From positions 1-33,299 of IMG/VR virus record IMGVR_UViG_3300037558_002251: DNA of 33,299 nucleotides, one strand, 5' to 3'. Source of the stretch: a virus. The notes beneath the pieces were generated by a model. It saw only the letters and a list, made by a program, of their open reading frames with translations. It searched no databases and had not been told where the DNA came from. Shown here piece by piece: positions 2,594 to 33,201 of this stretch. The position numbers and the translations under genes are program-made. Every line of letters begins with the position of its first letter. Positions within the stretch are counted from its first letter, which is position 1.

Positions 2594-2729
2594 CTCTCTC
2601 CCTCCATATCTCTATAATAGACTTTCTAACCATAAATGACTCTGTTATATAACTGTAACTGAAAGGAATAGATGTTCCTCTTGACACTTTCTCATCACCA
2701 TACCACACTATCTTACATCTCACTCCCAT
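2568..2729 (-). CDS. Small protein of 53 aa, unknown
   Basis: The ATG at 2729 overlaps the end of the 196-aa gene by ten bases. The product starts MGVRCKIVWYGDEKVSRG and has a charged helical C-terminus. The start lacks its own clear ribosome-binding site, so coupling to the upstream gene is likely. No domain recognised. Confidence 0.5.
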   Translation of the reverse strand: MGVRCKIVWYGDEKVSRGTSIPFSYSYITESFMVRKSIIEIWRERDESRVLHR

Positions 2730-3310
2730 ACCACCCAGCACCATGAATCATTTAGCACATCACTATCCTTTGCCATCCCAGTCAACTTATACTTAACCTT
2801 CTCATCATCACTCTTTTCCAAAATCTCTAATCGTATTTCATTTATCCACTCACTATCAATCAGCTCTTTTATATTATTTGCCTTCCTAATAAATATCAGC
2901 ACATCACATGCCTCTCTAATCTCATCTTCACTTGCACTCCCTTCCTTCAATTTCTTCCTGAACTCTATCAACCACTTAAGCACTCGCCTCTTTGTTAAAT
3001 AAAATTCTAAATCAAGCAACTTCTCCTTTCTCATCCTTTTTATCCATAGCCATTTTGCACTGTTAACTATATCTAACTCCTTCGCTGAACACTCTATATC
3101 AAACACAAGCATCCTATCCGCACAATTCATTATATCCTCATAATACAACAGCTCATCCTTCAGCGCGTTTTTCTCTGACATTTCTGTATTATATATTGCA
3201 ATATACATATTCACCACAGCACTCACAAACTCTTTCTCATCAATCCTTCTCTCTCTCACAGCCATTGCCATATGTTGTAATTTAGTAAACATATCTACAT
3301 ACACTTCCAT
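2720..3310 (-). CDS. Helical protein of 196 aa, unknown
   Basis: The start is placed at the ATG at 3310, right after GGGGTGAGTGAA; an ATG at 3328 would add six residues. The protein is acidic and almost entirely helical, with charged heptad-like stretches (for example LYYEDIMNCADRML and KRRVLKWLIEFRKKL). I see no catalytic motif, metal site or membrane segment. It directly follows the TFB-like gene, with five bases between them, so the two are probably translated from one transcript. It could be an adaptor or DNA-packaging accessory, but nothing in the sequence decides this. Confidence 0.75.
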   Translation of the reverse strand: MEVYVDMFTKLQHMAMAVRERRIDEKEFVSAVVNMYIAIYNTEMSEKNALKDELLYYEDIMNCADRMLVFDIECSAKELDIVNSAKWLWIKRMRKEKLLDLEFYLTKRRVLKWLIEFRKKLKEGSASEDEIREACDVLIFIRKANNIKELIDSEWINEIRLEILEKSDDEKVKYKLTGMAKDSDVLNDSWCWVVWE

Positions 3311-3315
3311 TTCAC

Positions 3316-3789
3316 TCACCCCTTCCACTTTTTAAGCAATTTCCTTATCGCCGTCTCACTTACTCCATACATCTCACTCACTTCCCTTTGTGTTACTCCT
3401 CCCTCAATATACTTTGCTGTTGCCAAAGCCAAACTTGTTATATTAGTATGTTTCATTAATTCCTTGACAATCTGCCTAACACTCTCACTCTCATTCTTCA
3501 AATAGTCATCTAATGTGTACCACTTAATCAACCCCTGCCTTTTTAACATTTTCTCTTGTCGTAACAGATATTTTAACTCATATCCCATAATATCACTTAT
3601 CGCCGTACATACCATCCGCGCTGGTAAAATCACTCCATTCTTATCTAAAATCTCCCTCACCACACAAAGCACTTTACCATACACTCCTAAATTCTTCTTT
3701 TTTACCTCACTGTACACTTCCTTCACTTCGCTAACACTAACATCCACCCCAAGCCTTTTCAACACTCTAACAATATCATCCATTTTCAT
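3316..3789 (-). CDS. TFB-like (TFIIB core-like) protein without zinc ribbon
   Basis: The start at 3789 follows GAGGTGAGGACA. The 157-residue product appears to hold two cyclin-like helical repeats (about 18-87 and 95-155). The second ends in SLALATAKYIEGGVTQREV and a SEMYGVSETAIRKLLK helix-turn-helix. This matches the layout of the second TFB repeat, where an A-A-x-Y-I-A helix is followed by a TQRE(I/V)AE recognition unit and a V-T-E-V-T-I-R-N-R-like helix. The N-terminal zinc ribbon and B-finger that recruit and activate RNA polymerase are absent. In archaea TFB contacts the BRE upstream of the TATA box. A core-only version could compete with host TFB or target it to viral promoters. A generic helix-turn-helix regulator is the alternative. 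Confidence 0.5.
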   Translation of the reverse strand: MKMDDIVRVLKRLGVDVSVSEVKEVYSEVKKKNLGVYGKVLCVVREILDKNGVILPARMVCTAISDIMGYELKYLLRQEKMLKRQGLIKWYTLDDYLKNESESVRQIVKELMKHTNITSLALATAKYIEGGVTQREVSEMYGVSETAIRKLLKKWKG

Positions 3790-3810
3790 TGTCCTCACCT
3801 CTCTCGCTAT

Positions 3811-3836: not shown

Positions 3837-4412
3837 CTATCTACTCTCATCCACACCATCTATGATAATATATGCCAACTCCCTATCCACCTTTTCCTCG
3901 CCAAACAAAAGTTTCGTAAACTCAAGCTCTCCATTGTTCGCATTCCTCCGTGATATTGCAAATGCTGTATCTCTATCGCTGTCAAACTCAACCTTCTCAA
4001 TTATGTAGAACTTGTTAGTCGCCCTTGACAAAAATGCCTTCACATACACAGTCCCTCTCCCTCTCGTCTTCACTAACTCATAGTCATCTGCAAGTTCCAT
4101 GTCGTTGCTATTATATGCATTCTCTATCGCAAACTTCCACAGTCTACCTATTTTCTCACTGTTCTCGTCGTCATACACTAAAACAACTTTATCCACATTC
4201 CAAATCTGCGCAAACACATCCTGCCATACATTCCACATATGTTCAAAGATATTTCTCTGCCCATCCCAGCAAATTTTGTTCTGTGCCTCTTCTAAATATT
4301 GCTCATTCACTGCATAGTCATTTCCCAAATACACCATCTTCCACTCCGCAAACTCTCCAAACCTATTCACATCCTTCTCATACTCTCCCAAACTCATACA
4401 AACTACTTCCAT
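3837..4412 (-). CDS. Protein of 191 aa, unknown, MoxR/VWA operon
   Basis: The ATG at 4412 follows a very strong GGAGGTGAGTGAA site; a GTG at 4421 is less likely. The acidic protein has alternating beta and alpha segments, including a KVVLVYDDEN strand and VYVKAFLSRATNKFYIIEKVEF. It shares a loose arrangement with the upstream 198-aa protein: a GEF/GEY plus VYLG/VYVG opening and a VVLVYDDEN / CVVVCDEKN strand followed by a basic helix. They may be ancient paralogues. Its place directly after the MoxR and VWA genes suggests a partner or substrate of that ATPase. No domain recognised. Confidence 0.7.
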   Translation of the reverse strand: MEVVCMSLGEYEKDVNRFGEFAEWKMVYLGNDYAVNEQYLEEAQNKICWDGQRNIFEHMWNVWQDVFAQIWNVDKVVLVYDDENSEKIGRLWKFAIENAYNSNDMELADDYELVKTRGRGTVYVKAFLSRATNKFYIIEKVEFDSDRDTAFAISRRNANNGELEFTKLLFGEEKVDRELAYIIIDGVDESR

Positions 4413-4413
4413 T

Positions 4414-5010
4414 TCACTCACCTCCTAATAAAATTCTCGCCCATACCTTATCTATATCTCCCCATACATGCTCACAAACTTCAGCTCTTACCAACCACTT
4501 CCCTAAATCAAACGCCCAATACCTACATCCCCCATCTGCTAATAATAAAACACCAGCGTCTTCATATCCAAATCTCAAAAATACTAAAGTCTTTTCCTCT
4601 TTTCCTATCACTATCGTATCCCACCTTGAATACATTAAATCCTTCTCGCTAACCATTTCCAATAACTCTACCACCTCATCATCCACACTCCCCTTACCCA
4701 AAATCCTCTCCCCTAAATCTTTATACACTCTCCTCATACAAAGCTCTTCATTCTTCTCATCACACACTACCACACAATTCAATCCTCTTAACCTTGCACT
4801 ATCCATTTCCATTAAAATATACTTCACTATACCTATCCCTGACCACACCTTCCTCCATACATCATCTACCTTCTTGCAGTCATAATGATAAATGTTATAT
4901 CTCCTCTTCTTTTGCCAATGATATCCGACATACACCAATCCACAATCCCTATACTCACCCTCTTCGAACCTTCTTTTATAGCTACTCAAATAATCTGTTA
5001 AAATTTGCAC
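4414..5010 (-). CDS. Protein of 198 aa, unknown, MoxR/VWA operon
   Basis: The likely start is the GTG at 5010, which comes right after the stop of the VWA gene and behind GAGGTGG; an upstream ATG at 5034 would lie inside that gene. The protein has mixed alpha/beta character: EYRDCGLVYVGYHW, GLNCVVVCDEKNEEL and TLVFLRFGYEDAGVLLLAD. It has several cysteines but no paired zinc motif. It is a weak candidate paralogue of the next gene. No function assigned. Confidence 0.7.
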   Translation of the reverse strand: MQILTDYLSSYKRRFEEGEYRDCGLVYVGYHWQKKRRYNIYHYDCKKVDDVWRKVWSGIGIVKYILMEMDSARLRGLNCVVVCDEKNEELCMRRVYKDLGERILGKGSVDDEVVELLEMVSEKDLMYSRWDTIVIGKEEKTLVFLRFGYEDAGVLLLADGGCRYWAFDLGKWLVRAEVCEHVWGDIDKVWARILLGGE

Positions 5011-5011
5011 A

Positions 5012-6211
5012 TTACCACCTCTCATCTCCTTCAATCTTAATCACTTCAAATCCTTCCCTCCCCCTATGCGTCGTTACCATTATTTTTCTTCCCGCCCCAC
5101 CTTTCACCATAAATCCTTCATCATCAAACCACTCGCCGTCAGTAAGCACTACCATTAAATCCTGCCTCTTCATCTTGTTCTTGTACTCATCCCATACTGG
5201 TTTAAACATCGTCCCTCCACCCTTCTCCCAATTCACTAACACATCACTTTTCTTCTTAATCACTCTATCCTCGCACACACCAACATTCCAAGTTATCACT
5301 CTCACCTCTTCGACAAAGTCCATTATCCTCACTATCTCACTAATAAATTGTTCAAACTCCCTTTCACTTATACTCCCACTCACATCCACGAACACCCAAA
5401 CCCTTGGTTTGCTTATCATCTCCCTCCCTGGAAAATCTCTCATCTTTCTATTCAACTTTCTCCAAGTCCCTATCGCATTCTTTGCTAAATAATTATGTAA
5501 CATTCTTCTTAATACTGCTCTCCAATCCACCTTGCTCTTGAGTAATTTATCCAATATCATCTTGTCCAAAGCTCCTAAATCCTGTCCCGCTACCTTAGCC
5601 GCTAATAAACTTTGCTTCACTAAATCCTTCACATCATCACTTGTCTGTAAATCTTTCTCTCCCTTTTGCACCATTGTCCCATTGTAACTCTTACTACTAT
5701 CGTCGCCATCTCCATTATCACTACAACCTGAACAATCCATCCCCGCCTCTAACGGCACTGATATAATTTGCACCTTACCCTCATTCACTAACCTATCAGC
5801 CAACTCCTCAGCACTACACTTCACTAAATCATCTCTGTTAAAAAACTGCTCTGGCTCAACTTTTGGTCTCAAGCCCAATTGCTTTATATGATAATTGACC
5901 TTTAAGTCCATTGCCAACTGTAACACTTTTATCCTTGCCAAATCACTCTCATGTTTTAATCTAAATGGATGTAACAATTTCACATGCCCAATCTCATGTA
6001 CTAATGTAACCAAACACTGCACATCCTCTTGTCCCATCCACATCTTTCCAAGATAAATACTCCTGCCATCCGTGTACCCAGTCCCTCCAAACCTATCGTC
6101 ATAGTACACACTAATCCCTTTCAAAATAAAATAATCGATTGGCGACTTGTGCGCCAGCATTGTTCTTATATCATCCAACCTTCTTTGAACTTTTCTTGCC
6201 TCTTCACTCAC
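5012..6211 (-). CDS. Metallopeptidase-like plus VWA domain protein (DUF2201/COG3864 type)
   Basis: The likely start is a GTG at 6211 that overlaps the MoxR stop as GTGA and follows GAGGTG; the product is then 399 aa. The N-terminal domain has a zinc-protease signature, HEIGH, near residue 72, within a TLVHEIGHVKLLHP helix. The C-terminal von Willebrand A domain has the MIDAS DVSGS motif near 276-280, a GGGT threonine near 334 and a TDGEW aspartate near 358. The linker has a CSGC pair. This arrangement is known for VWA-like proteins encoded beside MoxR ATPases. The ATPase is thought to remodel a client or insert a metal while the VWA protein holds the target. The client in this virus is unknown. 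Confidence 0.85.
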   Translation of the reverse strand: MSEEARKVQRRLDDIRTMLAHKSPIDYFILKGISVYYDDRFGGTGYTDGRSIYLGKMWMGQEDVQCLVTLVHEIGHVKLLHPFRLKHESDLARIKVLQLAMDLKVNYHIKQLGLRPKVEPEQFFNRDDLVKCSAEELADRLVNEGKVQIISVPLEAGMDCSGCSDNGDGDDSSKSYNGTMVQKGEKDLQTSDDVKDLVKQSLLAAKVAGQDLGALDKMILDKLLKSKVDWRAVLRRMLHNYLAKNAIGTWRKLNRKMRDFPGREMISKPRVWVFVDVSGSISEREFEQFISEIVRIMDFVEEVRVITWNVGVCEDRVIKKKSDVLVNWEKGGGTMFKPVWDEYKNKMKRQDLMVVLTDGEWFDDEGFMVKGGAGRKIMVTTHRGREGFEVIKIEGDERW

Positions 6212-7332
6212 GCCAAACACCTCTTATACAAACTCTTCAGAAACTCTTTGTACTCTTGCCCCTCTTGCTTATACAATCGAACCAATTTTACCTTGTATGC
6301 TTTCTTCATGAACATGTTTATCAACACTAAGAACTCTCTATCATTGCTCAGTAAATAATCAAAGAACTTTCTCACATTCTTCAACCCCTCTCCATTATCA
6401 ATGTCCTCCGCCAATTTACTCGTCACTTGCAAACTCATGAAATACTTCGCATTCGTGTCAAACCTCTCCCATATGGCTGGATTACTCAAAAGCACATTTA
6501 CATCTGGTAAGTTCATATTAACAAATGCCAAAAAGTGACTTGCTGCTCTCCCTCCAACAGTTCCGTATGCAACTGCCTCAAGCTCACTCCCGCTCAATTC
6601 GTGACTCACTTTTGCCAATGCTGTCCATGTCCTCGGTACAGCAAACGCCTCTAAAGTCTCGCCCTCTTCCGGTGGACTATAAAACAACTCTCTGTTCTTT
6701 GCTAAAAACGCAATCACTCTTCTATCCCACTTGTCGCCATATGTCTCATCCATATACTCACTCCACATCTCCAAACTTGGCACTTTACATCTCAAAATCC
6801 TCACTCGCCCAATTGCTGGTGTTGGTAGTTCAACTGCTAAACTCGAATCCTCTGGTCTATTCCCTGCCGCTATCACAAACACATCCTCATGCATTTTAAT
6901 AAATCCAACCTTCCTATCCAAAAGCAACTTGTACATCGCACTCTGCACATCCAACCTCTGTACATTTGTAATCTCATCAAGAAATAGTATCCCTGCGCAC
7001 TTGCTCAACACTTTGCCCCATAGTAGTGGTTTGAATCTAACACTCCCATCATCATCTCTTGGTACTCCAATTAAATCACTTGGCTCAACTTCCGTCAGTC
7101 TTAAATCCACAAACACAAAATACTTGTCCGGCTCACTCAGTATTTCATTTGCTATATCATCGTGGTAATCTACAAACTCTTTCCCTATCTCACTTGCCAA
7201 CTCTCTCGCCACTTGCTTCACTATCTCACTCTTACCTATCCCTGTCCCTCCTAACAATAAAGTTGTCGTTCTATCTCCTAACTCATACAACCTCTTTATA
7301 ATCCTTCCCGCCTCCTCAATTCTCACTTCCAC
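6208..7332 (-). CDS. MoxR-family AAA+ ATPase
   Basis: The start is placed at a GTG at 7332 behind GGAGGTGAGAGA (374 aa); an ATG at 7353 would overlap the upstream gene more. Walker A is GGTGIGKS at about 28-35, Walker B is ILFLDE at about 115-120 and sensor 1 is AAGNRP at about 155-160. The segment between (FVDLRLTEVEPSDLIGVP) is the typical MoxR insertion, where clients are engaged. The stop overlaps the VWA gene as GTGA, so the two proteins are probably made in fixed ratio and work as a chaperone-like pair in the cytoplasm. Transcription likely starts at the promoter at 7781-7800. Confidence 0.9.
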   Translation of the reverse strand: MEVRIEEAGRIIKRLYELGDRTTTLLLGGTGIGKSEIVKQVARELASEIGKEFVDYHDDIANEILSEPDKYFVFVDLRLTEVEPSDLIGVPRDDDGSVRFKPLLWGKVLSKCAGILFLDEITNVQRLDVQSAMYKLLLDRKVGFIKMHEDVFVIAAGNRPEDSSLAVELPTPAIGRVRILRCKVPSLEMWSEYMDETYGDKWDRRVIAFLAKNRELFYSPPEEGETLEAFAVPRTWTALAKVSHELSGSELEAVAYGTVGGRAASHFLAFVNMNLPDVNVLLSNPAIWERFDTNAKYFMSLQVTSKLAEDIDNGEGLKNVRKFFDYLLSNDREFLVLINMFMKKAYKVKLVRLYKQEGQEYKEFLKSLYKRCLA

Positions 7333-7463
7333 TCTCTCACCTCCTCTACACATTCATTTAATTTGACCATCTCCTCATTGCCTAACACTCTTGGCACAAA
7401 ACCAACAATTACCTCATCTCCAAACCTAATTTCCACATCCTTCCAATACATTACCTTCCTCAT
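7323..7463 (-). CDS. Small protein of 46 aa, unknown
   Basis: The start at 7463 (MRKVMYWKDVEIRFGDEV) lies 13 bases after the upstream stop and behind a GGAG element; the longer ATG at 7535 would run through the upstream gene. It overlaps the MoxR start by ten bases. The product is mixed beta/helix with no domain recognised. Confidence 0.55.
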   Translation of the reverse strand: MRKVMYWKDVEIRFGDEVIVGFVPRVLGNEEMVKLNECVEEVREWK

Positions 7464-7780: not shown

Positions 7781-7800
7781 GTATATAAATGTTTTGGTTT
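7781..7800 (-). promoter_or_regulatory. Archaeal BRE/TATA promoter of the MoxR/VWA operon
   Basis: On the minus strand the segment reads ACCAAAA (BRE-like) then CATTTATATAC (TATA box). It differs at one base of 20 from the promoter at 9411-9430. The first start codon is about 40 bases downstream of the TATA box behind GGAGGCGAG. The BRE end overlaps the stop of the upstream 41-aa gene, so there is no spare spacer. Confidence 0.75.
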
Positions 7801-8605: not shown

Positions 8606-8688
8606 CACTCACCACCTCTAACACTCAAACCACAACCATACAACATTTCCTTCCTACCATCTCTATATCTTATCTCTACCCACATCAT
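8605..8688 (-). CDS. Very small protein of 27 aa
   Basis: ATG-ATG at 8688 follows AAGGAGGTGGAGAGGT, one of the best ribosome-binding sites of the region. The product is MMWVEIRYRDGRKEMLYGCG and a short tail. It overlaps the next gene as TGATG. The strong site argues that it is translated, either as a real peptide or as a leader that couples translation. Confidence 0.45.
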   Translation of the reverse strand: MMWVEIRYRDGRKEMLYGCGLSVRGGE

Positions 8689-8715
8689 ACCTCTCCACCT
8701 CCTTTATAAAATAAA

Positions 8716-8934
8716 TTACGAAATGTAAATTCTAACCAACCCTTCCTTCAATCCATTGTAATCAATCCTAAACTCATCGTCTGTATAGAACTCTCCGCTG
8801 GTAAGTAAACCTATCTCAAGACCATCTTTGTATATCATTGCTCTGTTAGCATTGTACGCTATCGATATCTCTTGTATCCTACCACCTCTAACCTTCCAAA
8901 TCCTAACACCCTCACTCCCGACTTCAATTTTCAT
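8716..8934 (-). CDS. Small beta-rich protein of 72 aa, unknown
   Basis: The start at 8934 (MKIEVGSEGVRIWKV) lies eight bases after GGAGG. An ATG at 8949, overlapping the upstream stop as TAATG, would add five residues. The product alternates short strands (RIQEISIAYNANRAMIYKDG) like a small beta-barrel. No family recognised. Confidence 0.6.
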   Translation of the reverse strand: MKIEVGSEGVRIWKVRGGRIQEISIAYNANRAMIYKDGLEIGLLTSGEFYTDDEFRIDYNGLKEGLVRIYIS

Positions 8935-8948
8935 CACACATTCCTCCA

Positions 8949-9044
8949 TTACAATATATTTGGTATACACACTACACATTGTTCACAATCTCCTTTACAC
9001 TTCTCAACCACAATACTTTTCAGCCAAACTTCACTTCCATACAT
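8949..9044 (-). CDS. Very small Cys-rich protein of 31 aa
   Basis: The ATG at 9044 follows AAAGGAGGTAGTGGAA. The product starts MYGSEVWLKSIVVEKCKG and contains CKGDCEQCVVC, four cysteines within ten residues, enough for a metal site. It overlaps the upstream gene by 14 bases. Confidence 0.5.
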   Translation of the reverse strand: MYGSEVWLKSIVVEKCKGDCEQCVVCIPNIL

Positions 9045-9177
9045 TTCCACTACCTCCTTTATAAATCTCGTAAAACTCATATCCGCACTCCGCACATTTA
9101 TACTTCTCATAAATCCTCTTGCCCTCTACTACATCAACCACTTCAACCGCCCCGTTACATTCCTTACATGTTATCAT
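9031..9177 (-). CDS. Zinc-ribbon protein of 48 aa
   Basis: The ATG at 9177 follows AAGGAGGTAAGTAAA. Two knuckles, MITCKECNG at the start and KCAECGYEF near residue 28, are spaced as in a minimal zinc ribbon. Reminiscent of archaeal ribbon proteins that bind RNA polymerase or DNA; its target is unknown. Confidence 0.65.
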   Translation of the reverse strand: MITCKECNGAVEVVDVVEGKRIYEKYKCAECGYEFYEIYKGGSGNVWK

Positions 9178-9190
9178 TTTACTTACCTCC

Positions 9191-9361
9191 TTACTTTCCT
9201 ATTACTGGACACTTACCCCTTCTCAAACACGCTGCACAACTTATCTCTACCTTCTCTTTCAACCAAACTTCTAACTTTGGATGCCAAGTATAATCTGGTA
9301 TAAAACAATTATATACTACCGCACCATCCCCATCCCATCTCACTTTTCTTATCTCCTCCAT
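9191..9361 (-). CDS. Small Cys-rich protein of 56 aa
   Basis: The ATG at 9361 lies behind AAGGAGGCGAACAAAA, downstream of the promoter at 9411-9430. A longer open frame to 9466 would run through that promoter and is rejected. The C-terminus CAACLRRGKCPVIGK has a C-x2-C-x5-C arrangement. First gene of the transcript. Confidence 0.65.
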   Translation of the reverse strand: MEEIRKVRWDGDGAVVYNCFIPDYTWHPKLEVWLKEKVEISCAACLRRGKCPVIGK

Positions 9362-9410
9362 TTTTGTTCGCCTCCTTACTTTTTCTCTAATATATTGTAT
9401 GACACTCATG

Positions 9411-9430
9411 GTATATAAATCTTTTGGTTT
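9411..9430 (-). promoter_or_regulatory. Archaeal BRE/TATA promoter
   Basis: The minus strand reads AAACCAAAAG then ATTTATATAC, nineteen of twenty bases identical to the promoter at 7781-7800. The first gene starts 50 bases downstream. The intervening leader contains CATACAATATATTA (9388-9400), an element shared with the 30.4-kb promoter leader. Positions 9431-9489 contain no gene I can support. Confidence 0.75.
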
Positions 9431-11730: not shown

Positions 11731-11945
11731 ACTCTCACCTCTCTTACCATACACTCTTTACTCTCACCCTTGTCACTGTTAATATATACCTCCCGCCACA
11801 TTGCCCTACCATCACTCTCAAAATTATGCACTCTCCACGCCATATATTCTCCCACCTCTCCATATGTTAAAATAAAAACATCTCCCGCCATGTCATCATA
11901 CACCTTCCCGCCATCACATACTCTCATACTACACTTTACTTTCAT
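11718..11945 (-). CDS. Small protein of 75 aa, unknown
   Basis: The ATG at 11945 overlaps the upstream stop as TGATG. The product MKVKCSMRVCDGGKVYDDMA is followed by beta-like segments (DVFILTYGEVGEYMAWRV). A few cysteines, no paired knuckles. No family recognised. Confidence 0.55.
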   Translation of the reverse strand: MKVKCSMRVCDGGKVYDDMAGDVFILTYGEVGEYMAWRVHNFESDGRAMWREVYINSDKGESKECMVREVRVWEG

Positions 11946-12313
11946 CACACCCTCTCCCCGTCAACCTTCAACACCTTTCTCTGATGTCCAAGCTTATGCC
12001 AAGTACATTTAATACACACTCGCCCATCATAAATCACATATGGTCTAAAAGTCATCCTTCCGCACACTTGACACTTCTCTCCCCACAAGTTCACTGGTCT
12101 CCTATACTTCATATACGCATTTGCATTAATGCCCTTACTCGCACACTTATCACATACTCTAATCACTCCACTCAACGGCCACACTTGCTCATATCTCCCA
12201 CATAACATACACATCCCTTCCATCTTGTAAGTATCTAACTGCCTCTTATACCAATTGTATCCTTTCATCTTCAGTAACTTTTTCCAACTATCCATATCTA
12301 TTAAATTCGCCAT
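11945..12313 (-). CDS. Double zinc-finger protein of 122 aa
   Basis: The ATG at 12313 follows GGTGATAGGAC. After a helical N-terminus there are two four-cysteine modules: CMLCG with CDKC (about 35-57) and CQVCG with CIKC (about 81-103). Each looks like a treble-clef or zinc-ribbon unit of the type found in HNH endonucleases and DNA-binding proteins. No HNH catalytic residues are obvious; the C-terminus (WHKLGHQRKVLK) is basic. Probably a nucleic-acid-binding protein. Confidence 0.7.
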   Translation of the reverse strand: MANLIDMDSWKKLLKMKGYNWYKRQLDTYKMEGMCMLCGRYEQVWPLSGVIRVCDKCASKGINANAYMKYRRPVNLWGEKCQVCGRMTFRPYVIYDGRVCIKCTWHKLGHQRKVLKVDGERV

Positions 12314-13348: not shown

Positions 13349-15697
13349 TCACACCTCTATATCCAACACACTTACCACCGCTCCAGTATATTTCTTTGCC
13401 CCCCAACATGCCAAACACAATGCATCGACTACATCACTTCCCTCTGCCTTCTTTATCATAACTGTCCCATCACTCCTATAACTCGTTGTATACTTGTCAA
13501 ACTGCCTCACCATCTTTTCATCATCTAATAAAATCACCTTCCTATCCTCTAACAACTTCTTCATATTGTAATAAAGCTCATATCTCATTTTACTCGAAAA
13601 TGTTATCCCCTGCACATTATCCAACTTCTCATTTAACAATTGTTTTGCACCAATACCTAACCCAGTCTGGTCTACTATTATCTGCTCTGGCTGCCATTGC
13701 GCATTCAAATTCTTTATCCATCCAACTGTCTCTGTTATTGCAAACTTACTCCTATACCAATAATTATGCACCTCCAGCGGCATATTCTCGTCATACTTAT
13801 GTTTTCCAACCACACACACTACAGTCTCACTTGTCCCTGAAGCCGCTATATCCACTCCAAAGTAATATTCATACTCATCCAATGGCTCTTTCTTTCTACT
13901 CAACTTCGCAAGCTCTTTCACTCTCTCCAAATCAAACCACATCTCACTATAATCAATAAATTCTGCGAATATCTCCCGTCTGAAATCCACTTCTGTATGC
14001 GTCATCTTATACTCCTCAATAAATCCATCTGGCACAAAAGGACTCTCTATCGTCGGCACTCTATACTTACTCCATTCCTTACTCTCCCATGCTTTATAGA
14101 AAAACCCCTCCTTCCCCTTCGGTGTACTCATCAAAATTAACTGCCCATCCTTCACAGCCAACGCTGGAAATATTGCCACATACACTTCATCCGGCACATA
14201 CGCTGCCTCATCCACTATAACCATGTCGGCAGTGTTTCCACTAACTACTACTTTTCCATTTCTTCTTACCACCACCCATGTCGTTGGCACTTTCACAGAA
14301 TAAATATAACCATTATACTCTTCTTCTTCTACATCCTTTATCTCAAACATTGCATCCACTCTATACTTTCCTTTTTCATCTATATTTTCATATATCTCGT
14401 AACCTTCATCATAACTGACAATATTAGCTCTTCTTCCCAACTTTGCCATCATTTCTTGTATATCATCCATGAGCTGTTTTGAATATGACCTATATCTCAT
14501 CCTCCCATTTCTGATACTACCATCGCCCATTCCAAACCAATCCAAGAAAATTTGCAGTTGCTTCTTAGTAGCATTTTTTATCTCAAAAGGAACAAATTTC
14601 GCTCTCGCCTTGCCAAACTGCTCTAAATACAATGCTAAATCTTTATTATAAAACTGAAACTGTCTGTTCTTCTCATTATAGCTATAATTCATACCAAGTC
14701 GGTCTAACAGACCTTTGATTTTTCTCCATTTTTCATAATTCGTCTTCTTACATTGTGATATCGTAATTCTATAATACCTACTTTCACGCCGCCACTTTCC
14801 CTTCTTTAATCCATTATACACACTTCCTTCAGCAAGCCATATTCCCATAAATCTTACCCAATCATCTCCATTAACTATCAATTCTCCAAACTTCTTTTCT
14901 TTTATCTCCTCTCCTAACCATCTTCTTGCCCCTTTCATCATCCACCCAGAAAAATGCTTACCTTTTTTCTTTATTTCAATTAAATCTCCAGCTCTAATTT
15001 CAATAAAATCATTACCAACATCATATCCCATCTCACGCAAAATTCTTTTTCCTGACTTCACCTTAACAAGTAATCTATGCTCCCAACTAACCAATAAATC
15101 TATTTGTCTGTTCTTTATTCTTATCATCTTACCTTTTGCTGGCAATTTTACAATTTTCTGTACATCTGTCCATGAAAAACTACCGTCCTTCGCAACTTGC
15201 ATCACCACACTGCACTCGTCTAAATCCCTAAACCTCTTCCAACCATCTAATGTTAAGATTTCCGTATCTTCCGAATAACAAAATCCCCTGATATATTCAC
15301 CCGTCTTACCAGCTGGCAAACACCTTATCACACTACCATTCTTAAACCTTATCTCATTAATCGTCAACTTCACTGTCTCGCTCATCAAAATCTCATTCAA
15401 ATAAATAGTCTCATAAATCTTATCAAATACAATCTTTGCCTGTCGCTCAGTTGGTCCAAGCACTAATATCTCTTGCCTTGGATGACAAAACGCTCTCCAT
15501 AATGCCTTCAACGACACAATTGTACTCTTACCCACTTGCCTTCCACTATTCAATATAATCCTTTTACTCTCATCTAATAAAATATCCCGCTGGTACTTTG
15601 CCAACTCAATACCACACAATAACCTCACAAACTTCTCTGGTTCTTTTCTAAACACTTCTAACACTCTTTCCTTTACACTTTTCTCTTCGCCGCTCAC
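13349..15697 (-). CDS. terL: Terminase large subunit with intein
   Basis: The GTG start at 15697 overlaps the upstream gene as GTGA. After removal of the 349-residue intein the host protein is 433 aa, the normal size for a terminase large subunit. The ATPase part has Walker A SGRQVGKS (51-58) and, after the intein, Walker B MVIVDEAA (492-499) with the MSTPKG coupling motif. The RNase H-like nuclease has YFGVDIA (D616), IIVDQTG (D676) and GSDVVDAL (D755/D758). It packages DNA into procapsids. Directly upstream is the DpdA-like gene, not a recognisable small terminase. Confidence 0.95.
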   Translation of the reverse strand: MSGEEKSVKERVLEVFRKEPEKFVRLLCGIELAKYQRDILLDESKRIILNSGRQVGKSTIVSLKALWRAFCHPRQEILVLGPTERQAKIVFDKIYETIYLNEILMSETVKLTINEIRFKNGSVIRCLPAGKTGEYIRGFCYSEDTEILTLDGWKRFRDLDECSVVMQVAKDGSFSWTDVQKIVKLPAKGKMIRIKNRQIDLLVSWEHRLLVKVKSGKRILREMGYDVGNDFIEIRAGDLIEIKKKGKHFSGWMMKGARRWLGEEIKEKKFGELIVNGDDWVRFMGIWLAEGSVYNGLKKGKWRRESRYYRITISQCKKTNYEKWRKIKGLLDRLGMNYSYNEKNRQFQFYNKDLALYLEQFGKARAKFVPFEIKNATKKQLQIFLDWFGMGDGSIRNGRMRYRSYSKQLMDDIQEMMAKLGRRANIVSYDEGYEIYENIDEKGKYRVDAMFEIKDVEEEEYNGYIYSVKVPTTWVVVRRNGKVVVSGNTADMVIVDEAAYVPDEVYVAIFPALAVKDGQLILMSTPKGKEGFFYKAWESKEWSKYRVPTIESPFVPDGFIEEYKMTHTEVDFRREIFAEFIDYSEMWFDLERVKELAKLSRKKEPLDEYEYYFGVDIAASGTSETVVCVVGKHKYDENMPLEVHNYWYRSKFAITETVGWIKNLNAQWQPEQIIVDQTGLGIGAKQLLNEKLDNVQGITFSSKMRYELYYNMKKLLEDRKVILLDDEKMVRQFDKYTTSYRSDGTVMIKKAEGSDVVDALCLACWGAKKYTGAVVSVLDIEV
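14234..15280 (-). mobile_element. Intein with LAGLIDADG endonuclease in terminase
   Basis: The element covers terminase residues 140-488. It starts at Cys140 with CYSEDTEILTLDGWKRF, a classic block A, and has block B VSWEHRLLVKV. The endonuclease carries the motifs IWLAEGSVY (about 287) and WFGMGDGSIR (about 387), the first with Glu in place of the catalytic Asp. It ends VVVSGN before Thr489. The residue before the terminal Asn is Gly instead of the common His. It sits between the ATPase Walker motifs, in a conserved G-F/T-A-D segment. Confidence 0.93.
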
Positions 15698-16869
15698 TTC
15701 TCCTCACCTAATGCATTCAATAACTCATCCCATTTACTTACTCCTTTTTCAATCACTTTTACATTACCATATCGCTCTGGATACTTTAACTTCAGATACT
15801 TCTCAATTAAGTTTGCTATTCCATCTTCCAACTGCGTGACATGTTTATCTAATATTCCTCCTTCCAAATCCTCAAACACTCTTGCTCTTATATATCTTTC
15901 TAATCTTTGCTCTATCACATACTTAATTGTGTCTTCTAAAACATTGTCTGTGACTATACTCTCCATCTTTTTCTTTATTAACTTACACTCTGTCGCTTCT
16001 TCATCGTAATCCGAACAATTCACTCCAACCGGACATATTTTGCAACAAAAACTCCCTACTCTTTCTGTCATATCTCCCACCTCTTTCCTCTCGTAATACT
16101 CTTGTAATTTCTTCCACTCTCGCACCGTTATCTCATTCAAAAATTTACCCTTTCCTTTCTTCACTTCATTTTCATCTAACTCATACTCTCTCGCTAACGC
16201 CACCAATTTCGGTATGTTGTCTTTCCAATAAAAGCGCTCAATCTCACCATTCTTGAAATATGAAATATCGCCATATTTACTTCCTATCCATCCAGTACTA
16301 TCACAACTATACGCCATCGTTGAAATCTTTCTAAAATTTGCCGTATAACCAAACACATGCAACTTAACACCTTCGTTGTAGCTCCTTGCCTTTCTCAAAG
16401 TATTAACTATTCTCTGTTCCAACACACTTCTGTCTGCCCCACTCCCTGCAAATCCTCCTAAACACACATAATCATATGTCTCGCAATACTCTTTTAGTAT
16501 ATCATAAGACTCTCCATAATGCCACACCGGCAATGGCGATAAGCCATATTCGTTCTCTAAAATTTTCATATTTTTCTTACTTTCATCCACATCTAACACA
16601 TCAACATTCGCATAAGCAAAAATATAATCTTCGTTCTCTTTAATCCACTCTCCATACTCTCTTATATAACTTTCTGGCACACTATCAACTTTATGTTTTG
16701 TTCTAAAAGTAAACCCACCACTATCTACAAACACTCTCATTCCTTCAAAATCTGCCATGTTAAAATTCTTCTGTTGATTAATATAATAAAACGATACTAA
16801 TACTGAATATGGCTTGACACTCTTCATTAATTTTACAAATGCCTCCGCCCCAGCCAAAAATATTATCAT
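15694..16869 (-). CDS. dpdA: DpdA/TGT-like DNA transglycosylase with extra C-terminal domain
   Basis: The ATG at 16869 overlaps queC as ATGA behind GGAGGTGAGTG. Residues 1-about 230 look like the tRNA-guanine transglycosylase barrel: VFVDSGGFTF with catalytic-type Asp49, AYANVDVLDVDE, LPVWHYGES, CLGGFAG, HVFGYTA (171-177) and SCDSTGW (188-194). Viral DpdA proteins exchange guanine in DNA for a 7-deazaguanine base; the neighbouring preQ0 genes support this. An extra part (about 270-391) has SFCCKICPVGVNC and C295, a candidate metal site, followed by long helices. This tail could contribute small-terminase functions because it directly precedes terL; that is inference. Confidence 0.75.
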   Translation of the reverse strand: MIIFLAGAEAFVKLMKSVKPYSVLVSFYYINQQKNFNMADFEGMRVFVDSGGFTFRTKHKVDSVPESYIREYGEWIKENEDYIFAYANVDVLDVDESKKNMKILENEYGLSPLPVWHYGESYDILKEYCETYDYVCLGGFAGSGADRSVLEQRIVNTLRKARSYNEGVKLHVFGYTANFRKISTMAYSCDSTGWIGSKYGDISYFKNGEIERFYWKDNIPKLVALAREYELDENEVKKGKGKFLNEITVREWKKLQEYYERKEVGDMTERVGSFCCKICPVGVNCSDYDEEATECKLIKKKMESIVTDNVLEDTIKYVIEQRLERYIRARVFEDLEGGILDKHVTQLEDGIANLIEKYLKLKYPERYGNVKVIEKGVSKWDELLNALGEEK

Positions 16870-17660
16870 TCACTCACCTCCAACGCTCTCAATGTCTCCA
16901 TTATCCTCTTTTCTGAATAATGACTAAAATCTTTCTTTCTCTTTGCTTCTTCATATCTCTTTATTAAATCTCTTGCTACCTCACTCTCTCTGGGATTTAC
17001 TTTCCAGTACTTTCTCCAATTTAACCCAGCATTTACATACGCCACCCATCTCTTAAAACATGTACTACACTCTCCACATGCCCAGTTCCTCTCGTCATAA
17101 CAAGTTACTGTTTTATCCAAGACCTTCTGTGCCTTTTCTCTTCCCAATAAATCTACAAACCATTTTGCAATTTCACTCTTACTCATCTCTTTAAAAGGTG
17201 TTTCTACAATAATATCTCTATCCATCACATAACTCAATACTCCCGACGCCAATTCAAAAAATGTATGATTCTTGTCCGTCATATACCTATGCATCTCTCC
17301 ATCCAAAGCACATATCCATACTCTATCAGCAAATACACTCCCCACATATGCCATTAATAGATTCCTGCCTGGTATCACTTGTTTTTCTGGTGTTGGTAAA
17401 TTCTTTAACTCTTCTCTCAGCAAATTGAACTTAAACTCCAAATAATTCATTTCTCCAATTTCACTTCTAATCATATCTATTGCATTCTTTTCTTTCCACT
17501 CATATGGCTGTCCAATATCAACATGTATCATCACTATATCGTCGTTCTTATAGCCACTGTCTAACGCATAATAATATGCTATCGTTGTATCCATTCCTCC
17601 GCTCCACATTATTGCCAATTTATATCTTTTATACTTTACCACACTATCCCAAATGCTCAT
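16866..17660 (-). CDS. queC: QueC-like 7-cyano-7-deazaguanine (preQ0) synthase
   Basis: The ATG at 17660 follows GGAGATGAGCGGAA (264 aa). The N-terminal PP-loop has SGGMDT (20-25), and PGRN (97-100) is also typical. Zinc ligands are C187, C195, C198 and C201 in CYDERNWACGECSTCF. QueC converts 7-carboxy-7-deazaguanine to preQ0 using ATP and ammonia. A C-terminal basic helical tail is present. A glutamine-amidotransferase fusion, as in some Gat-QueC phage proteins, is absent. It lies between the HAD gene and dpdA and should supply the base that DpdA inserts. Confidence 0.88.
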   Translation of the reverse strand: MSIWDSVVKYKRYKLAIMWSGGMDTTIAYYYALDSGYKNDDIVMIHVDIGQPYEWKEKNAIDMIRSEIGEMNYLEFKFNLLREELKNLPTPEKQVIPGRNLLMAYVGSVFADRVWICALDGEMHRYMTDKNHTFFELASGVLSYVMDRDIIVETPFKEMSKSEIAKWFVDLLGREKAQKVLDKTVTCYDERNWACGECSTCFKRWVAYVNAGLNWRKYWKVNPRESEVARDLIKRYEEAKRKKDFSHYSEKRIMETLRALEVSE

Positions 17661-17961
17661 TTCCGCTCATCTCCTCTATCGCCATTAACTTTCTTTTTTC
17701 ATCAACATAATAATCGAATCTCAACTTCTCCAATACCAAAAAATCGTACTTCACTCCATGTTCTTTCAACCATGCTTCAGTCCAATATCTATCTTCTTCT
17801 CTTCTCGCTGTATATATCACTATTATATGCCCCTGGTCAAATAGCTTATTCACTTTTTCTATGTTTTCAATTATTGGCTCTCTTTCCAAAAAATCTTTCA
17901 CATCCCATCCTCCTTCTTCGCACAAAACCCCATCCAAATCAACCGCAATCACTTTCTTCAT
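17644..17961 (-). CDS. HAD-superfamily phosphatase-like protein
   Basis: The ATG at 17961 follows GGGGAGGATAAC (105 aa). Motif I is DLDGVL (D8/D10), motif II is the VIYTARR segment, and the C-terminus has LRFDYYVDEKRK, which replaces the usual DD motif. The length and the TARR motif fit small phage HAD hydrolases or nucleotidases. It sits between the phosphoribosyltransferase and queC inside the deazaguanine cassette and may dephosphorylate a pathway nucleotide. The substrate is unknown. Confidence 0.75.
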   Translation of the reverse strand: MKKVIAVDLDGVLCEEGGWDVKDFLEREPIIENIEKVNKLFDQGHIIVIYTARREEDRYWTEAWLKEHGVKYDFLVLEKLRFDYYVDEKRKLMAIEEMSGNEHLG

Positions 17962-18407
17962 GTTATCCTCCCCCTACTATACCCTTTTCTCTCACCTAAA
18001 ACGAAATCTATCAAATCCCAAGGAAATAGCACCCACACATCTTCACTCTCTCTCATCACAAAATAATCTTCTTTTACATTAACCTCTCTTCTACTCTCAT
18101 CACTCAAGAAAACAAACACTTTATAATTATAACCTCTCAGTTTACTTGTTACCAATTTCATTGTCTTTCCCGTCGCTATCACATCGTCTACTACCAAGAT
18201 TTTTTCTTCTCTCTTCGGCTGTGGCAAAAACTCACACTCATTATTTGATATATGACAATATGAAAACCTCTTATCGTATTTAGTCGCCAACATAGACCCC
18301 AATATCGCTCCAGCCCTCCCAACTCCTACTATTCTATCAAACTCTTCTACTTTTACCTCTCTCAACATCTCAAATATCTTGTTATAATCTAAATATTCAA
18401 CTCTCAT
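17958..18407 (-). CDS. Purine phosphoribosyltransferase-like protein
   Basis: The ATG at 18407 follows GGTGAGTGATTG (149 aa). The PRPP-binding motif LVVDDVIATGKT (71-82) is clear, and FDRIVGVGRAGAILGSMLA gives the pyrophosphate loop. This is a type I phosphoribosyltransferase fold. Substrate is not determined by the sequence; hypoxanthine/guanine types are the closest pattern. Location inside the preQ0 operon suggests that it could join a 7-deazaguanine base to PRPP or recycle displaced guanine. That is inference. Confidence 0.8.
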   Translation of the reverse strand: MRVEYLDYNKIFEMLREVKVEEFDRIVGVGRAGAILGSMLATKYDKRFSYCHISNNECEFLPQPKREEKILVVDDVIATGKTMKLVTSKLRGYNYKVFVFLSDESRREVNVKEDYFVMRESEDVWVLFPWDLIDFVLGERKGYSRGRIT

Positions 18408-18922
18408 CAATCACTCACCTTCAATAATGCCAAAACCTCCTCTTTTGGAATATATCCTCTTATCGCACTCGTCACAATCACTCCTTTATTTCTTACGCCC
18501 CTCATTTTCATACATAAATGCTCTGCTTCTACTATTACCATCACCCCTTGTACACTTGGTACTTTCTCAAATAAATAATCCGCTATCTCATGTGTTAATT
18601 TCTCCTGTAATTGTGGCCTACTCGCAAATTTCTTCACTATCCTCACTAATTTACTCAATCCAAGCACATAACCATCCGGCAAGTACGCTATATGCACTTT
18701 CCCATAAAACGGTAGTAGATGATGACTACAAAAACTAAAGAACTCGATGTCCTTCTCAATCACTAAATCATTATACCCATCATATTCAAAAATTCCTCTA
18801 TCCAGTTCCCACTCTCTCCACTTCTTGAACTCATCCATCATTCTCTTAATTCTCTTTGGCGTATTTTTCTTACTCTCGTCGTCAAATAAGTCCTTGTCAA
18901 AATAAATCCCTATAGTTTCCAC
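18407..18922 (-). CDS. folE: GTP cyclohydrolase I (FolE)
   Basis: The GTG at 18922 follows GGAGGTGAATAT (171 aa). Zinc and active-site motifs are complete: FCSHHLLPFYG (C65, H67, H68), FASRPQLQE (99-107) and EAEHLCMKMRG (132-142, with C137). It makes 7,8-dihydroneopterin triphosphate from GTP, the first step to preQ0. Most euryarchaea use a different type (MptA), so a FolE-I in an archaeal virus gives the pathway independence from the host. Confidence 0.93.
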   Translation of the reverse strand: METIGIYFDKDLFDDESKKNTPKRIKRMMDEFKKWREWELDRGIFEYDGYNDLVIEKDIEFFSFCSHHLLPFYGKVHIAYLPDGYVLGLSKLVRIVKKFASRPQLQEKLTHEIADYLFEKVPSVQGVMVIVEAEHLCMKMRGVRNKGVIVTSAIRGYIPKEEVLALLKVSD

Positions 18923-19281
18923 ATATTCACCTCCGCACTTGCCTTTCTACTCTCCCAACACTTCACATTCACACTTTTCACATTCTTAAATCTTTCAATT
19001 ATCTCCCTCGCAATTGCCTCAGACAAAACCTCTACTGTTGGCATTTCAAAGAAATCGTTCAAATTCTTGTGGTCATACTTCATCACTATCTCATCCAATC
19101 TATGAAAATCAACTATCATTCCATTCTCGTTCAACTCTCCACACAACTGCACTTCTATCTTCACATTGTGTCCATGTAAATTTCTACACCTACTCTCATA
19201 CGGCAAATTTAACTGGTGCGCTACAGCTATCTCATATTCTTTTGATATTGTTCTCACTACACTAATATTCTCTCCTCCCAT
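18910..19281 (-). CDS. queD: 6-carboxytetrahydropterin synthase (QueD)
   Basis: The start at 19281 follows GGGGTGATGGTA; GTG or ATG alternatives within 30 bases exist. Zinc ligands are H22 with H36 and H38 in CRNLHGHN, and the catalytic Cys is C32. VDFHRLD, DHKNLND (70-76), PTVEVLSE and a WES near the end (E110) match the family. It converts the FolE product to 6-carboxy-tetrahydropterin. It overlaps folE by 13 bases. Confidence 0.92.
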   Translation of the reverse strand: MGGENISVVRTISKEYEIAVAHQLNLPYESRCRNLHGHNVKIEVQLCGELNENGMIVDFHRLDEIVMKYDHKNLNDFFEMPTVEVLSEAIAREIIERFKNVKSVNVKCWESRKASAEVNMWKL

Positions 19282-19286
19282 TACCA

Positions 19287-19589
19287 TCACCCCACATATC
19301 TCAAATCCTCTTTCTTATCCTCTCTCGCACACATACTTATTGCCATTTTTCTTAAATTAATAAAATCCTCCCAACTTTTCAGTCCCCATTTTATCAAAAC
19401 CAAACCAAGAAATACAGCGTCTTCAATCTCTAACTCAATTCTTCTGTTTCCTACACTAAACTCAACCTTCTCTGATTCCATTATATCTTTATCTATATCC
19501 ACTCCAATCTCTTTCTTCATCACTACCATTAAATCACTCTTAGCCTTCTTATTTTTCTTATAGTAAATTATGTCGCCTTTCTCTTCCAT
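19287..19589 (-). CDS. Protein of 100 aa, unknown, in the deazaguanine operon
   Basis: The ATG at 19589 follows GGGGTGATTGA. A basic start (MEEKGDIIYYKKNKKAKSD) is followed by a strand-rich middle (KVEFSVGNRRIELEIEDAVF) and a C-terminal helix. It looks like a small DNA-binding fold, but I recognise no family. Placed between the homing endonuclease and queD. Confidence 0.65.
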   Translation of the reverse strand: MEEKGDIIYYKKNKKAKSDLMVVMKKEIGVDIDKDIMESEKVEFSVGNRRIELEIEDAVFLGLVLIKWGLKSWEDFINLRKMAISMCAREDKKEDLRYVG

Positions 19590-20288
19590 TCAATCACCCC
19601 ACTTCTTTACCCATTCCTCGTCATACAACGCTCTCCATTTATAGTCAAAACAACCCACTTTATATGGTTCTGTCATTTTCAAAAATTCATACACCTGCCT
19701 CTGTCTGTTCAAATGCATCACTAAACCACTCGAGGTACTATGATATATTCTAAAATCGAAATCAAATTCTTCTTCTAACCTCTTTTTTAGAAAACTAATA
19801 TCTTCTCTGATAAAACCGTTCGTAGACATTCCAATAGTATAATAATTACTAAATTGGTTTAGATACCCATCACCCATGTACCAATTAGCTAAACTCATTG
19901 GTGTTAATCTTACATCTCTTGGAACTATCTTCTTACCATTAGAATACCATCTCTTATACTCCATACTCAATATTTTTTTATTCCCCACTGTCCATCTCAC
20001 AGACGGTCTAAATTTTGCAATTTTATTCTTTATTTTATTTTTTTGAGAAGCACTCTTATTTATATGTCCATGCCCAAGAAATCCTAACTTTTTCTTAATA
20101 TAATTCAACCACTCTATAGACTTTTCCGTCAAACCTATACCAAAAACATAAGTCGTTGAATTTAAATACAAATACCCATCACTCAACATCACTCCATCAA
20201 ATACCTCCCACGCCTCATCACTCACATTCAAACTTCCACCATTTCCATTCCACTCAAACCTCTTATCCAATAAAGTACATTGCATCAT
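19590..20288 (-). CDS. Free-standing LAGLIDADG homing endonuclease
   Basis: The ATG at 20288 overlaps queE as ATGA, behind GGAGGGGTGT (232 aa). Two dodecapeptide motifs are seen: VFDGVMLSDGYLY (near 29-41) and SLANWYMGDGYLN (near 131-143), each with the acidic catalytic position. The domain order resembles the LAGLIDADG_2 type (PF03161). No splice blocks flank it and it has its own start and stop, so it is not an intein. It is most probably a mobile gene that cuts and converts this site in related genomes. Confidence 0.85.
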   Translation of the reverse strand: MMQCTLLDKRFEWNGNGGSLNVSDEAWEVFDGVMLSDGYLYLNSTTYVFGIGLTEKSIEWLNYIKKKLGFLGHGHINKSASQKNKIKNKIAKFRPSVRWTVGNKKILSMEYKRWYSNGKKIVPRDVRLTPMSLANWYMGDGYLNQFSNYYTIGMSTNGFIREDISFLKKRLEEEFDFDFRIYHSTSSGLVMHLNRQRQVYEFLKMTEPYKVGCFDYKWRALYDEEWVKKWGD

Positions 20289-20929
20289 ACACCCCTCCTA
20301 TTACCAAATAACCTTATATGCAACCTATCACTATAATTAAATCCATTCTCAATTGCACTCTCCCAGCACTTCACTGCCCATTTATTCACTTCATTTGCAC
20401 TTGCTCCGTATGGCATTAACCATACTTTCTCTCTCGGTAATTTATATTTTTCTATTATCTCATTTACTTCTTTCACACTCCATGTCCATTTCTGTTCACC
20501 AATCACAAACTTGTAATCCACCACCTCCTTCTTGTCTGTCCAAAAACTCCAATCCACATCCGCGCCTTTCTTTGGACTAACCACAAACCTCACACCCCAT
20601 TTACATCGCAATGGTAAAACTGTTCCATTCGTCTCCACTACACACTTATCACCTAACATAAACAATAATTCTCTCAACCCATTCCAATACTGCATTAAAG
20701 GCTCTCCGCCAGTAATCACAACTAAATTCTCATCCTTTACCTCTTCGTATATACTATTCACATCTACTCTGTAATAATTACCATCCCATGTAAATGAACT
20801 ATCACATCCCTTGCATCTCAAATTACAACCATACAACCTCACCATCTTACACTTCCTTCCCATATACCTTCCCTCGCCAGCAATTGCATCATATACTTCA
20901 ACTACTTTCAACATCTTCCCTACAATCAT
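20285..20929 (-). CDS. queE: 7-carboxy-7-deazaguanine synthase (QueE), radical SAM
   Basis: The ATG at 20929 follows GAGGTGTTAGAGT (214 aa). The 4Fe-4S motif CNLRCKGC (C35, C39, C42) has the canonical CxxxCxxC spacing, and the SAM-binding VITGGEPLMQ is at 71-80. VYDAIAGEGRYMG is the usual substrate-binding start. It converts 6-carboxy-tetrahydropterin to 7-carboxy-7-deazaguanine, the substrate of QueC. It overlaps the XPF-like gene by 32 bases. Confidence 0.92.
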   Translation of the reverse strand: MIVGKMLKVVEVYDAIAGEGRYMGRKCKMVRLYGCNLRCKGCDSSFTWDGNYYRVDVNSIYEEVKDENLVVITGGEPLMQYWNGLRELLFMLGDKCVVETNGTVLPLRCKWGVRFVVSPKKGADVDWSFWTDKKEVVDYKFVIGEQKWTWSVKEVNEIIEKYKLPREKVWLMPYGASANEVNKWAVKCWESAIENGFNYSDRLHIRLFGNRRGV

Positions 20930-26096: not shown

Positions 26097-26209
26097 ACTC
26101 CTTTTATCCATTCTGTAACTTCGTTGAAATCCCAATTCACGAACCAGACCAGACATCCATTTTCTCCAACCACAATCCTAATTATTTCCAACACAGCACT
26201 CACACCCAT
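26084..26209 (-). CDS. Small protein of 41 aa, unknown
   Basis: The ATG at 26209 lies ten bases inside the end of the primase gene. The product MGVSAVLEIIRIVVGENGCL is hydrophobic at first and continues WFVNWDFNEVTEWIKGV. Its stop lies inside the second 14-base repeat. Weak support from codon pattern only; the frame extends upstream within the primase gene. Confidence 0.4.
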   Translation of the reverse strand: MGVSAVLEIIRIVVGENGCLVWFVNWDFNEVTEWIKGVEGA

Positions 26210-27081
26210 AAATTCACACTTGGATAAAACGGACACTTTTCCATGCAAATCCCTTTCTCCATTGCCGTCTTGCACTTGAACGCTTTTATGTTCTTGCTCA
26301 GAATATACTTTAACTGATAGTCAGTCCTGTCTTCTCTAAAATCACTTGCCATCCTAAACACATCCTTCACATCTTCATAATCCCATACTCTCAATAAAAA
26401 CGCCGCTATGTGCAATCTGTAATCATGCTCTAACTCTCCCGTCCTTGCAAGTATCTCCACACCCTCTTGAACACACCTTGGCATTGAACTCATATCCTTT
26501 ATATTCTCAAATAACCTCTCACTTTCACTCTCACTCCTTTCCATCGTCACACTATCATATTCTTTCAACTCTTTCCCTAACTCCTTACTCACCTTACCTT
26601 TCTCTATTAATATCACCTCTCGACCAACATATCCATTAACCGTACCTGGTATCCTTCCCAACTGCCTCATATTACCAATCCTATCCACATATCCCTTTAA
26701 TCCCATATCACACACCCACTTCCTCACCACCTCATTATAACTCTCCAACCTTGTCAACTCTATCAAAAGGTAAACATGATACCCTCGTCCAGTAAAATAG
26801 ACTCTTGGCTCATACTCATGTAATAAATCTAAAACTCTTTCAAGTTTGTTATTCAAATCACCTCGCCCTTCATGGTCATCAATATCCAACCATACCACAT
26901 CAAACATTCTCCTCACAACCTGCCAATTCGCAAATATACTTGCATAACAATCAATGCCTTTCTGAAACTCAATATAATCATATAAATCTATCATATCATT
27001 CGCCACCCTTCTCAACTTACCAATCTCTCTTGGAAACGGATTATCTACTCTCATCCATTTCAATATTTCCTTGATGTTCAT
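26200..27081 (-). CDS. Archaeo-eukaryotic primase with PriL-like Fe-S domain
   Basis: The start at 27081 follows GGTGAGGGGAAAGAA and overlaps the upstream stop as ATGA (293 aa). The catalytic core shows VVWLDIDDHEG (DID at 66-68), FTGRGYHVYL (98-102) and GRIPGTVNGYV (143-147), the three AEP motifs. The C-terminal part has four cysteines (C203, C270, C279, C283) in MPRC, FKC and GICMEKCPFYP, the pattern of the PriL 4Fe-4S domain. A single chain thus combines small and large primase features. It should make primers for the viral polymerase. Confidence 0.87.
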   Translation of the reverse strand: MNIKEILKWMRVDNPFPREIGKLRRVANDMIDLYDYIEFQKGIDCYASIFANWQVVRRMFDVVWLDIDDHEGRGDLNNKLERVLDLLHEYEPRVYFTGRGYHVYLLIELTRLESYNEVVRKWVCDMGLKGYVDRIGNMRQLGRIPGTVNGYVGREVILIEKGKVSKELGKELKEYDSVTMERSESESERLFENIKDMSSMPRCVQEGVEILARTGELEHDYRLHIAAFLLRVWDYEDVKDVFRMASDFREDRTDYQLKYILSKNIKAFKCKTAMEKGICMEKCPFYPSVNLWV

Positions 27082-27194
27082 TTCTTTCCCCTCACCCAAT
27101 TGAAAAACCAATTGTACCATAAATTCATATCCGCATTCACCAGCAAGTCCAAACCCAACTTGCTCACAGTATAAGTGAAAATCTCGTACTTCAT
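27078..27194 (-). CDS. Small protein of 38 aa, unknown
   Basis: The ATG at 27194 overlaps the upstream gene by four bases. The product MKYEIFTYTVSKLGLDLLVN has a hydrophobic middle and a Trp-rich tail ending RGKK. It provides the overlap into the primase start. Confidence 0.5.
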   Translation of the reverse strand: MKYEIFTYTVSKLGLDLLVNADMNLWYNWFFNWVRGKK

Positions 27195-32615: not shown

Positions 32616-32621
32616 AACACA

Positions 32622-33167: not shown

Positions 33168-33201
33168 CGCCACCACCTCACATTATTATTCTATCCTTTC
33201 A

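Follow-up and report, generated by a model that had tools for sequence, protein, structure and literature searches.

A virus-encoded 157-residue protein with a predicted TFB-core-like fold and no zinc ribbon is a probable regulator of transcription

Results

Gene, gene run and promoters

The window analysed here is the whole 33,299-nucleotide stretch of an incomplete linear IMG/VR virus record (IMGVR_UViG_3300037558_002251). A reading made from the letters of this DNA alone (the sequence-only reading) had proposed a core-only TFB-like gene at positions 3316–3789. The open reading frame there is real and translates to 157 amino acids; its coding strand is the minus strand, the plus-strand frame being riddled with stops. 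We call its product TFB-core-like after its AlphaFold model and the Foldseek matches of that model to TFIIB/TFB. The frame starts at ATG 3789 and is preceded by a Shine-Dalgarno sequence, GAGGTG, at 3796–3801 (minus strand), while an in-frame upstream GTG at 3798 would give an alternative 160-aa product. The 157-aa protein is basic (pI 9.5). Its neighbours lie on the same strand and are densely packed; 47 T-rich nucleotides separate the frame from the upstream gene and may hold a terminator or an internal promoter.

The gene is the seventh in a collinear minus-strand run that extends from 7758 to 2720 and is headed by a canonical BRE/TATA promoter, ACCAAAACATTTATATA, at 7782–7798 (minus strand), about 25–30 nt upstream of where the run begins. 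Two small genes are followed by a MoxR-type AAA ATPase (6208–7353, minus strand; Pfam AAA, PHROG 1297), a DUF2201 metallopeptidase-like/VWA protein (5012–6220, minus strand; Pfam DUF2201_N, E 2e-17), two proteins without a family match, of 206 aa (4414–5034, minus strand) and 194 aa (3837–4421, minus strand, directly upstream of the TFB-core-like gene), the TFB-core-like gene itself, and one further open reading frame of 196–202 aa directly downstream (2720–3310, minus strand). This last product, which has no assigned function, is helical in a low-confidence model (pLDDT 61), and its gene overlaps the TFB-core-like gene if GTG 3328 is its start. The MoxR ATPase and DUF2201/VWA genes form a pair (5012–7353, minus strand), and the ATPase is 27–31% identical to ATPases of numerous tailed phages that infect bacteria (Pantoea, Klebsiella, Vibrio).

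A second BRE/TATA promoter, ACCAAAAGATTTATATA, lies at 9412–9428 (minus strand). The motif ACCAAAA occurs 14 times in the window against 7.1 expected, and a good TATA box adjoins just two of these copies, those of the ACCAAAACATTTATATA and ACCAAAAGATTTATATA promoters. The ACCAAAA-BRE promoters that had been proposed at 7.79 and 9.42 kb are therefore present, both on the minus strand. The shared BRE had also been linked to a possible redirecting of polymerase to viral promoters, and here we disagree: host TFB would itself use a BRE that adjoins a perfect TATA box, so these promoters are in themselves no argument for redirected specificity or a virus-specific factor.

The virus

The capsid protein encoded in the window is related to those of the druskaviruses HVTV-1 and HCTV-1/5 and of the Methanofastidiosa-associated virus vir519, and two relatives were found in archaeal genome bins; for these reasons this is most likely a tailed archaeal virus. 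The protein composition of the window (IVYWREL 0.469) points to a hyperthermophile host. Other viral genes encode a terminase, PolB, a RadA-like ATPase, and ERCC4 and Cas4-like nucleases.

Several further features were observed. The terminase large subunit (13349–15697, minus strand) is a 782-aa single frame whose LAGLIDADG-bearing insertion looks like an intein. A 7-deazaguanine cluster (15694–20929, minus strand) comprises QueC, GTP cyclohydrolase I, a QueD-like PTPS and a radical-SAM QueE-like protein, together with a 391-aa protein without a Pfam or NCBIfam match that may be a transglycosylase. The preQ0/G+ pathway is common to all Druskaviridae (PMC8651126), and the Que genes of the window match that pathway. 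Among them lies a free-standing LAGLIDADG-like ORF of homing-endonuclease type (19590–20288, minus strand), recognised from sequence only, as is a similar free-standing ORF among the capsid genes of record IMGVR_UViG_3300004069_000017 (8660–9409, plus strand). That record is identical to the window over 31583–33299 and runs about 9.3 kb further, adding portal, protease and other structural genes; it represents the same or a near-identical virus. The protein at 26200–27120 (minus strand) matches PriL at its C-terminus (NCBIfam E 6e-12) and looks PriS-like by eye in its N-terminal part, and is possibly a fused minimal archaeal primase. Two identical direct repeats of 300 bp each (320–619 and 1022–1321) lie 702 bp apart close to the contig's left end.

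Predicted fold

From the single sequence, AlphaFold2 produced a model of ten helices arranged as 5+5 (pLDDT 91.9, pTM 0.78; other four models, 77–82). DSSP places the helices of repeat 1 (residues 1–88; 3526–3789, minus strand) at residues 3–12, 19–30, 36–50, 57–68 and 72–84, and those of repeat 2 (residues 89–156; 3322–3525, minus strand) at 93–97, 102–111, 118–129, 134–141 and 145–156. When the model was compared with the PDB using Foldseek, ranks 1–21 were all TFIIB, TFB or Brf1 (probability 0.90–1.00), the TFB of P. woesei (1AIS, 1D3U) among them. The best DNA-bound TFIIB/TFB cores reached a TM by query of 0.49–0.56, above apo TFIIB and true cyclins at about 0.33. In a viral structure library the TFIIB family likewise leads, including giant-virus TFIIBs and the TFB of rudivirus SSRV1. 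The E-values of the TFIIB-family matches, about 5e-3, are modest and not decisive; the assignment of the model to the TFIIB/TFB fold is strong through consistency rather than through any single score. The two cyclin-like repeats that had been read from the letters thus reappear as two five-helix domains in the predicted structure, with TFIIB/TFB as the best match.

We also considered a sigma factor and rejected this identity. Sigma factors match the model poorly (TM about 0.24, probability 0.16), and in a search for sigma-70 regions 2 and 4 the Sigma70_r4 and sigma70-ECF matches fell below the Pfam and NCBIfam cut-offs, leaving a single sub-threshold region-4 helix-turn-helix (HTH).

Sequence kinship with TFB

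Pfam recognised the C-terminal HTH alone (best HTH_24, E 7.6e-5) and gave no match to the TFIIB repeat, PF00382, in the protein or elsewhere in the window. Searched with PHROG and NCBIfam, the protein matched generic HTH or sigma-4 models, again without a TFIIB repeat. At the level of sequence families, then, the expectation of best matches beyond a generic HTH was not borne out. Among the controls, PF00382 gave 49 bits for the divergent viral TFB of ARV3 and 64 bits for that of a Halorubrum virus, and viral and plasmid TFB controls together span 49–103 bits.

Alignment to a TFB profile gave a more graded picture. With hhalign, the HTH alone was aligned (P 1.4e-4, 40% identity over 25 columns). 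Global alignment, which we used since the version with free end gaps was uninformative, scored 44 against −15.5 ± 11.9 for shuffled sequences (z 5.0, 0/200) and exceeded all 162 length-matched background ORFs. When the HTH was kept and the rest shuffled, z was 2.1 (7/200), and when repeat 1 alone was shuffled it was 1.4 (18/200). Given this drop, likeness to TFB appears to have fair sequence support in repeat 2 and little, apart from the fold, in repeat 1. The profile alignment of repeat 2 reads DDYLK...SESVRQIVKELM...TQREVSEMYGVSETAIR, and its likeness to TFB lies at DY...SE.VR...I..L...TQREV. Common descent with TFB is partly supported by these results.

It is possible that the protein is a generic all-helical tandem-HTH DNA-binding regulator without TFB descent, whose fold is merely similar to that of a TFB core. 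Generic HTH and sigma-4 models alone match it, the N-terminal half is weakly similar to TFB in sequence, the Foldseek E-values are modest, and residues 57–90 admit a winged-helix-like reading as well. However, the TFIIB family stands at or near the top in both structure libraries, each half consists of five helices with a terminal HTH as in TFB, and the repeat-2 similarity extends across the positions given above. We consider such an origin rather unlikely.

Conserved and missing elements

The C-terminal HTH (residues 133–156; 3322–3393, minus strand; HTH_24, hhalign) corresponds to the HTH that reads the BRE in TFB, and it resembles TFB TQREVAE..VTE.TVR. We mapped residue correspondences by hand. 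The counterpart of human TFIIB R286 is kept as R149 and that of V283 is T146; both human residues are ones that we take to contact the BRE.

Repeat 1 appears to differ from TFB at the surface that contacts TBP. By hand and profile alignment to the P. woesei TFB core, it is without the GR-containing (GRS) loop that joins helices 2 and 3 in TFB. The counterpart of R169 is N51 or K50 and that of K188 is Y70 in a hand alignment that is uncertain there; an alternative alignment with a six-residue loop insertion puts R45 at R169. The GR motif is present in most of the TFBs that we compared, and R169 in nearly all, including both viral TFBs. Mutations of R169 and K188 reduce TFIIB-TBP binding (PMC6004067). 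These TBP-contact residues are probably changed in repeat 1.

The open reading frame begins directly at repeat 1, leaving no B-reader or B-linker, and profile searches found no TFB zinc ribbon (PF08271) in the ORF, upstream of it or anywhere in the window. An N-terminal ribbon or B-linker cannot fit upstream, as the gap is only 47 nt. The proposal that the protein is without zinc ribbon and B-finger therefore agrees with what we found, whereas the ribbon-bearing second factor that had been invoked to direct polymerase was not detected by PF08271 in the window. We looked at small cysteine-rich proteins of the virus as candidate split-ribbon partners, and they were not supported. A 122-aa protein (11945–12313, minus strand) carries two C-x2-C-x15-C-x2-C motifs with TFB-ribbon spacing and is unrecognised by the TFB ribbon model.

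The missing ribbon and linker, and helices and loops shorter than in TFB cores, would also be expected of a functionless, decaying remnant of a captured full-length TFB. Against such decay stand the intact ORF with its good Shine-Dalgarno sequence in a compact gene run, the well-packed, high-confidence model and the lack of any ribbon remnant upstream, and we regard it as very improbable.

Taken as anatomy, the core-only TFB-like description holds for the fold and the missing ribbon and fails for the sequence, which has no PF00382 match. Because neither PF00382 repeats nor a ribbon were found, the protein is TFB-core-like and is not classed as a TFB under strict criteria.

Search for homologues

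We found no homologues of the 157-aa protein in viral contig or genome contig collections, in pattern scans that are insensitive when started from a single sequence. A tblastn search against phages gave just one 31-residue HTH match. No homologue was found in 48 records sharing the capsid protein or in six further records, nor in 87 genomes of one archaeal phylum, where two weak partial matches were seen. A plasmid protein of Actinarchaeum halophilum (NZ_CP071309.1, 505–1158) was considered as a core-only TFB and rejected, for a zinc ribbon lies in frame upstream; the annotated start is wrong, and the same open frame includes the ribbon. Profile patterns brought up four viral TFBs, each with a ribbon. 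The ribbonless form thus differs from the viral TFBs compared here (ARV3 gp32, the Halorubrum virus TFB and these four), all of which are ribbon-bearing.

Discussion

The 157-aa viral protein probably regulates transcription. The likeliest function, to which we give a probability of about one half, is to bind promoters directly and thereby repress or modulate them; the retained HTH, the basic charge and the weakened TBP surface are our reasons for favouring it. We envisage a virus-encoded, stripped-down TFB core that would serve as a DNA-binding transcription regulator, keeping the two five-helix cyclin-like domains and the BRE-type HTH in the second. Without zinc ribbon, B-reader or B-linker it should be unable to recruit RNA polymerase, or to open it, in the manner of TFB. 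The repeat-2 HTH would grip promoter DNA with the help of the basic repeat 1, and occupancy of BRE/TATA-region DNA would repress or tune host or viral promoters. TBP is not assumed to be necessary, since in repeat 1 the features that contact TBP look degraded. We infer descent from TFB, the DNA target and the repressive direction.

A different possibility is a true core bound to TBP-TATA, which would either compete with host TFB as a dominant negative or select promoters together with a separate ribbon-bearing factor. The fold matches TBP-bound TFB cores, the BRE-type HTH is retained and the virus has canonical BRE/TATA promoters; there is also a precedent, for in vitro the truncated Sulfolobus TFB known as TFB3 is a competitor of TFB1 for RNAP (PMC2246294). 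However, the repeat-1 GRS loop is deleted, the hand alignment replaces R169 and K188, the window yielded no ribbon partner, and with host-like viral promoters a general TFB blocker would harm the virus as well. We judge this reading improbable, and TBP binding and host-TFB blocking are somewhat disfavoured. That a ribbonless mini-TFB core on host or viral BRE/TATA promoters blocks or redirects initiation is conceivable, if doubtful. A compact TFB-core-like regulator is more likely to act via its HTH at promoters than as a full TBP partner.

Little is known about how archaeal viruses that lack a polymerase of their own redirect host transcription. We found no archaeal-virus precedent for takeover by a ribbonless core in the literature searched. 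If this reading is correct, a TFB core that lacks its ribbon by nature would be a ready tool for separating promoter binding from polymerase recruitment, and a route to takeover unlike that of RIP.

Among known systems, the closest in fold are P. woesei TFBc (1AIS/1D3U) and the TFIIB core, which share the two five-helix cyclin-like repeats and the C-terminal HTH. A TFB core has about 195 residues compared with 157 in the viral protein, whose helices and loops are shorter; unlike the TFB core, the viral protein is without the repeat-1 GRS loop, ribbon and linker and is unrecognised by PF00382. Sigma-70 region 4 and generic HTH regulators match at the C-terminal HTH, yet the overall fold agrees poorly with sigma.

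TFB-fold proteins are likewise encoded by other archaeal viruses, namely rudiviruses (ARV3 gp32, SSRV1), a Halorubrum tailed virus (ORF43) and Aoguangviridae. Virus-encoded TFBs are documented in Italian rudiviruses, where a preference for viral promoters is not established (PMC9501531), and in Aoguangviridae (PMC10768690). The ARV3 and Halorubrum virus TFBs are 281–310 aa long and have a zinc ribbon and PF00382 repeats, whereas the 157-aa protein has neither. ATV ORF145/RIP is also an archaeal-virus protein that targets the basal transcription machinery (PMC9501531, PMC5123050), but it sits in the RNAP DNA channel and mimics the B-linker, so that its target is another one, and no shared fold is evident. 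Sulfolobus TFB3, like the viral protein, is truncated relative to TFB, being a TFB paralogue and proposed transcription modulator. The two are mirror images in architecture: in TFB3 the ribbon remains while the B-finger and BRE-binding HTH are missing (PMC2246294), and in the viral protein the HTH remains while the ribbon is missing.
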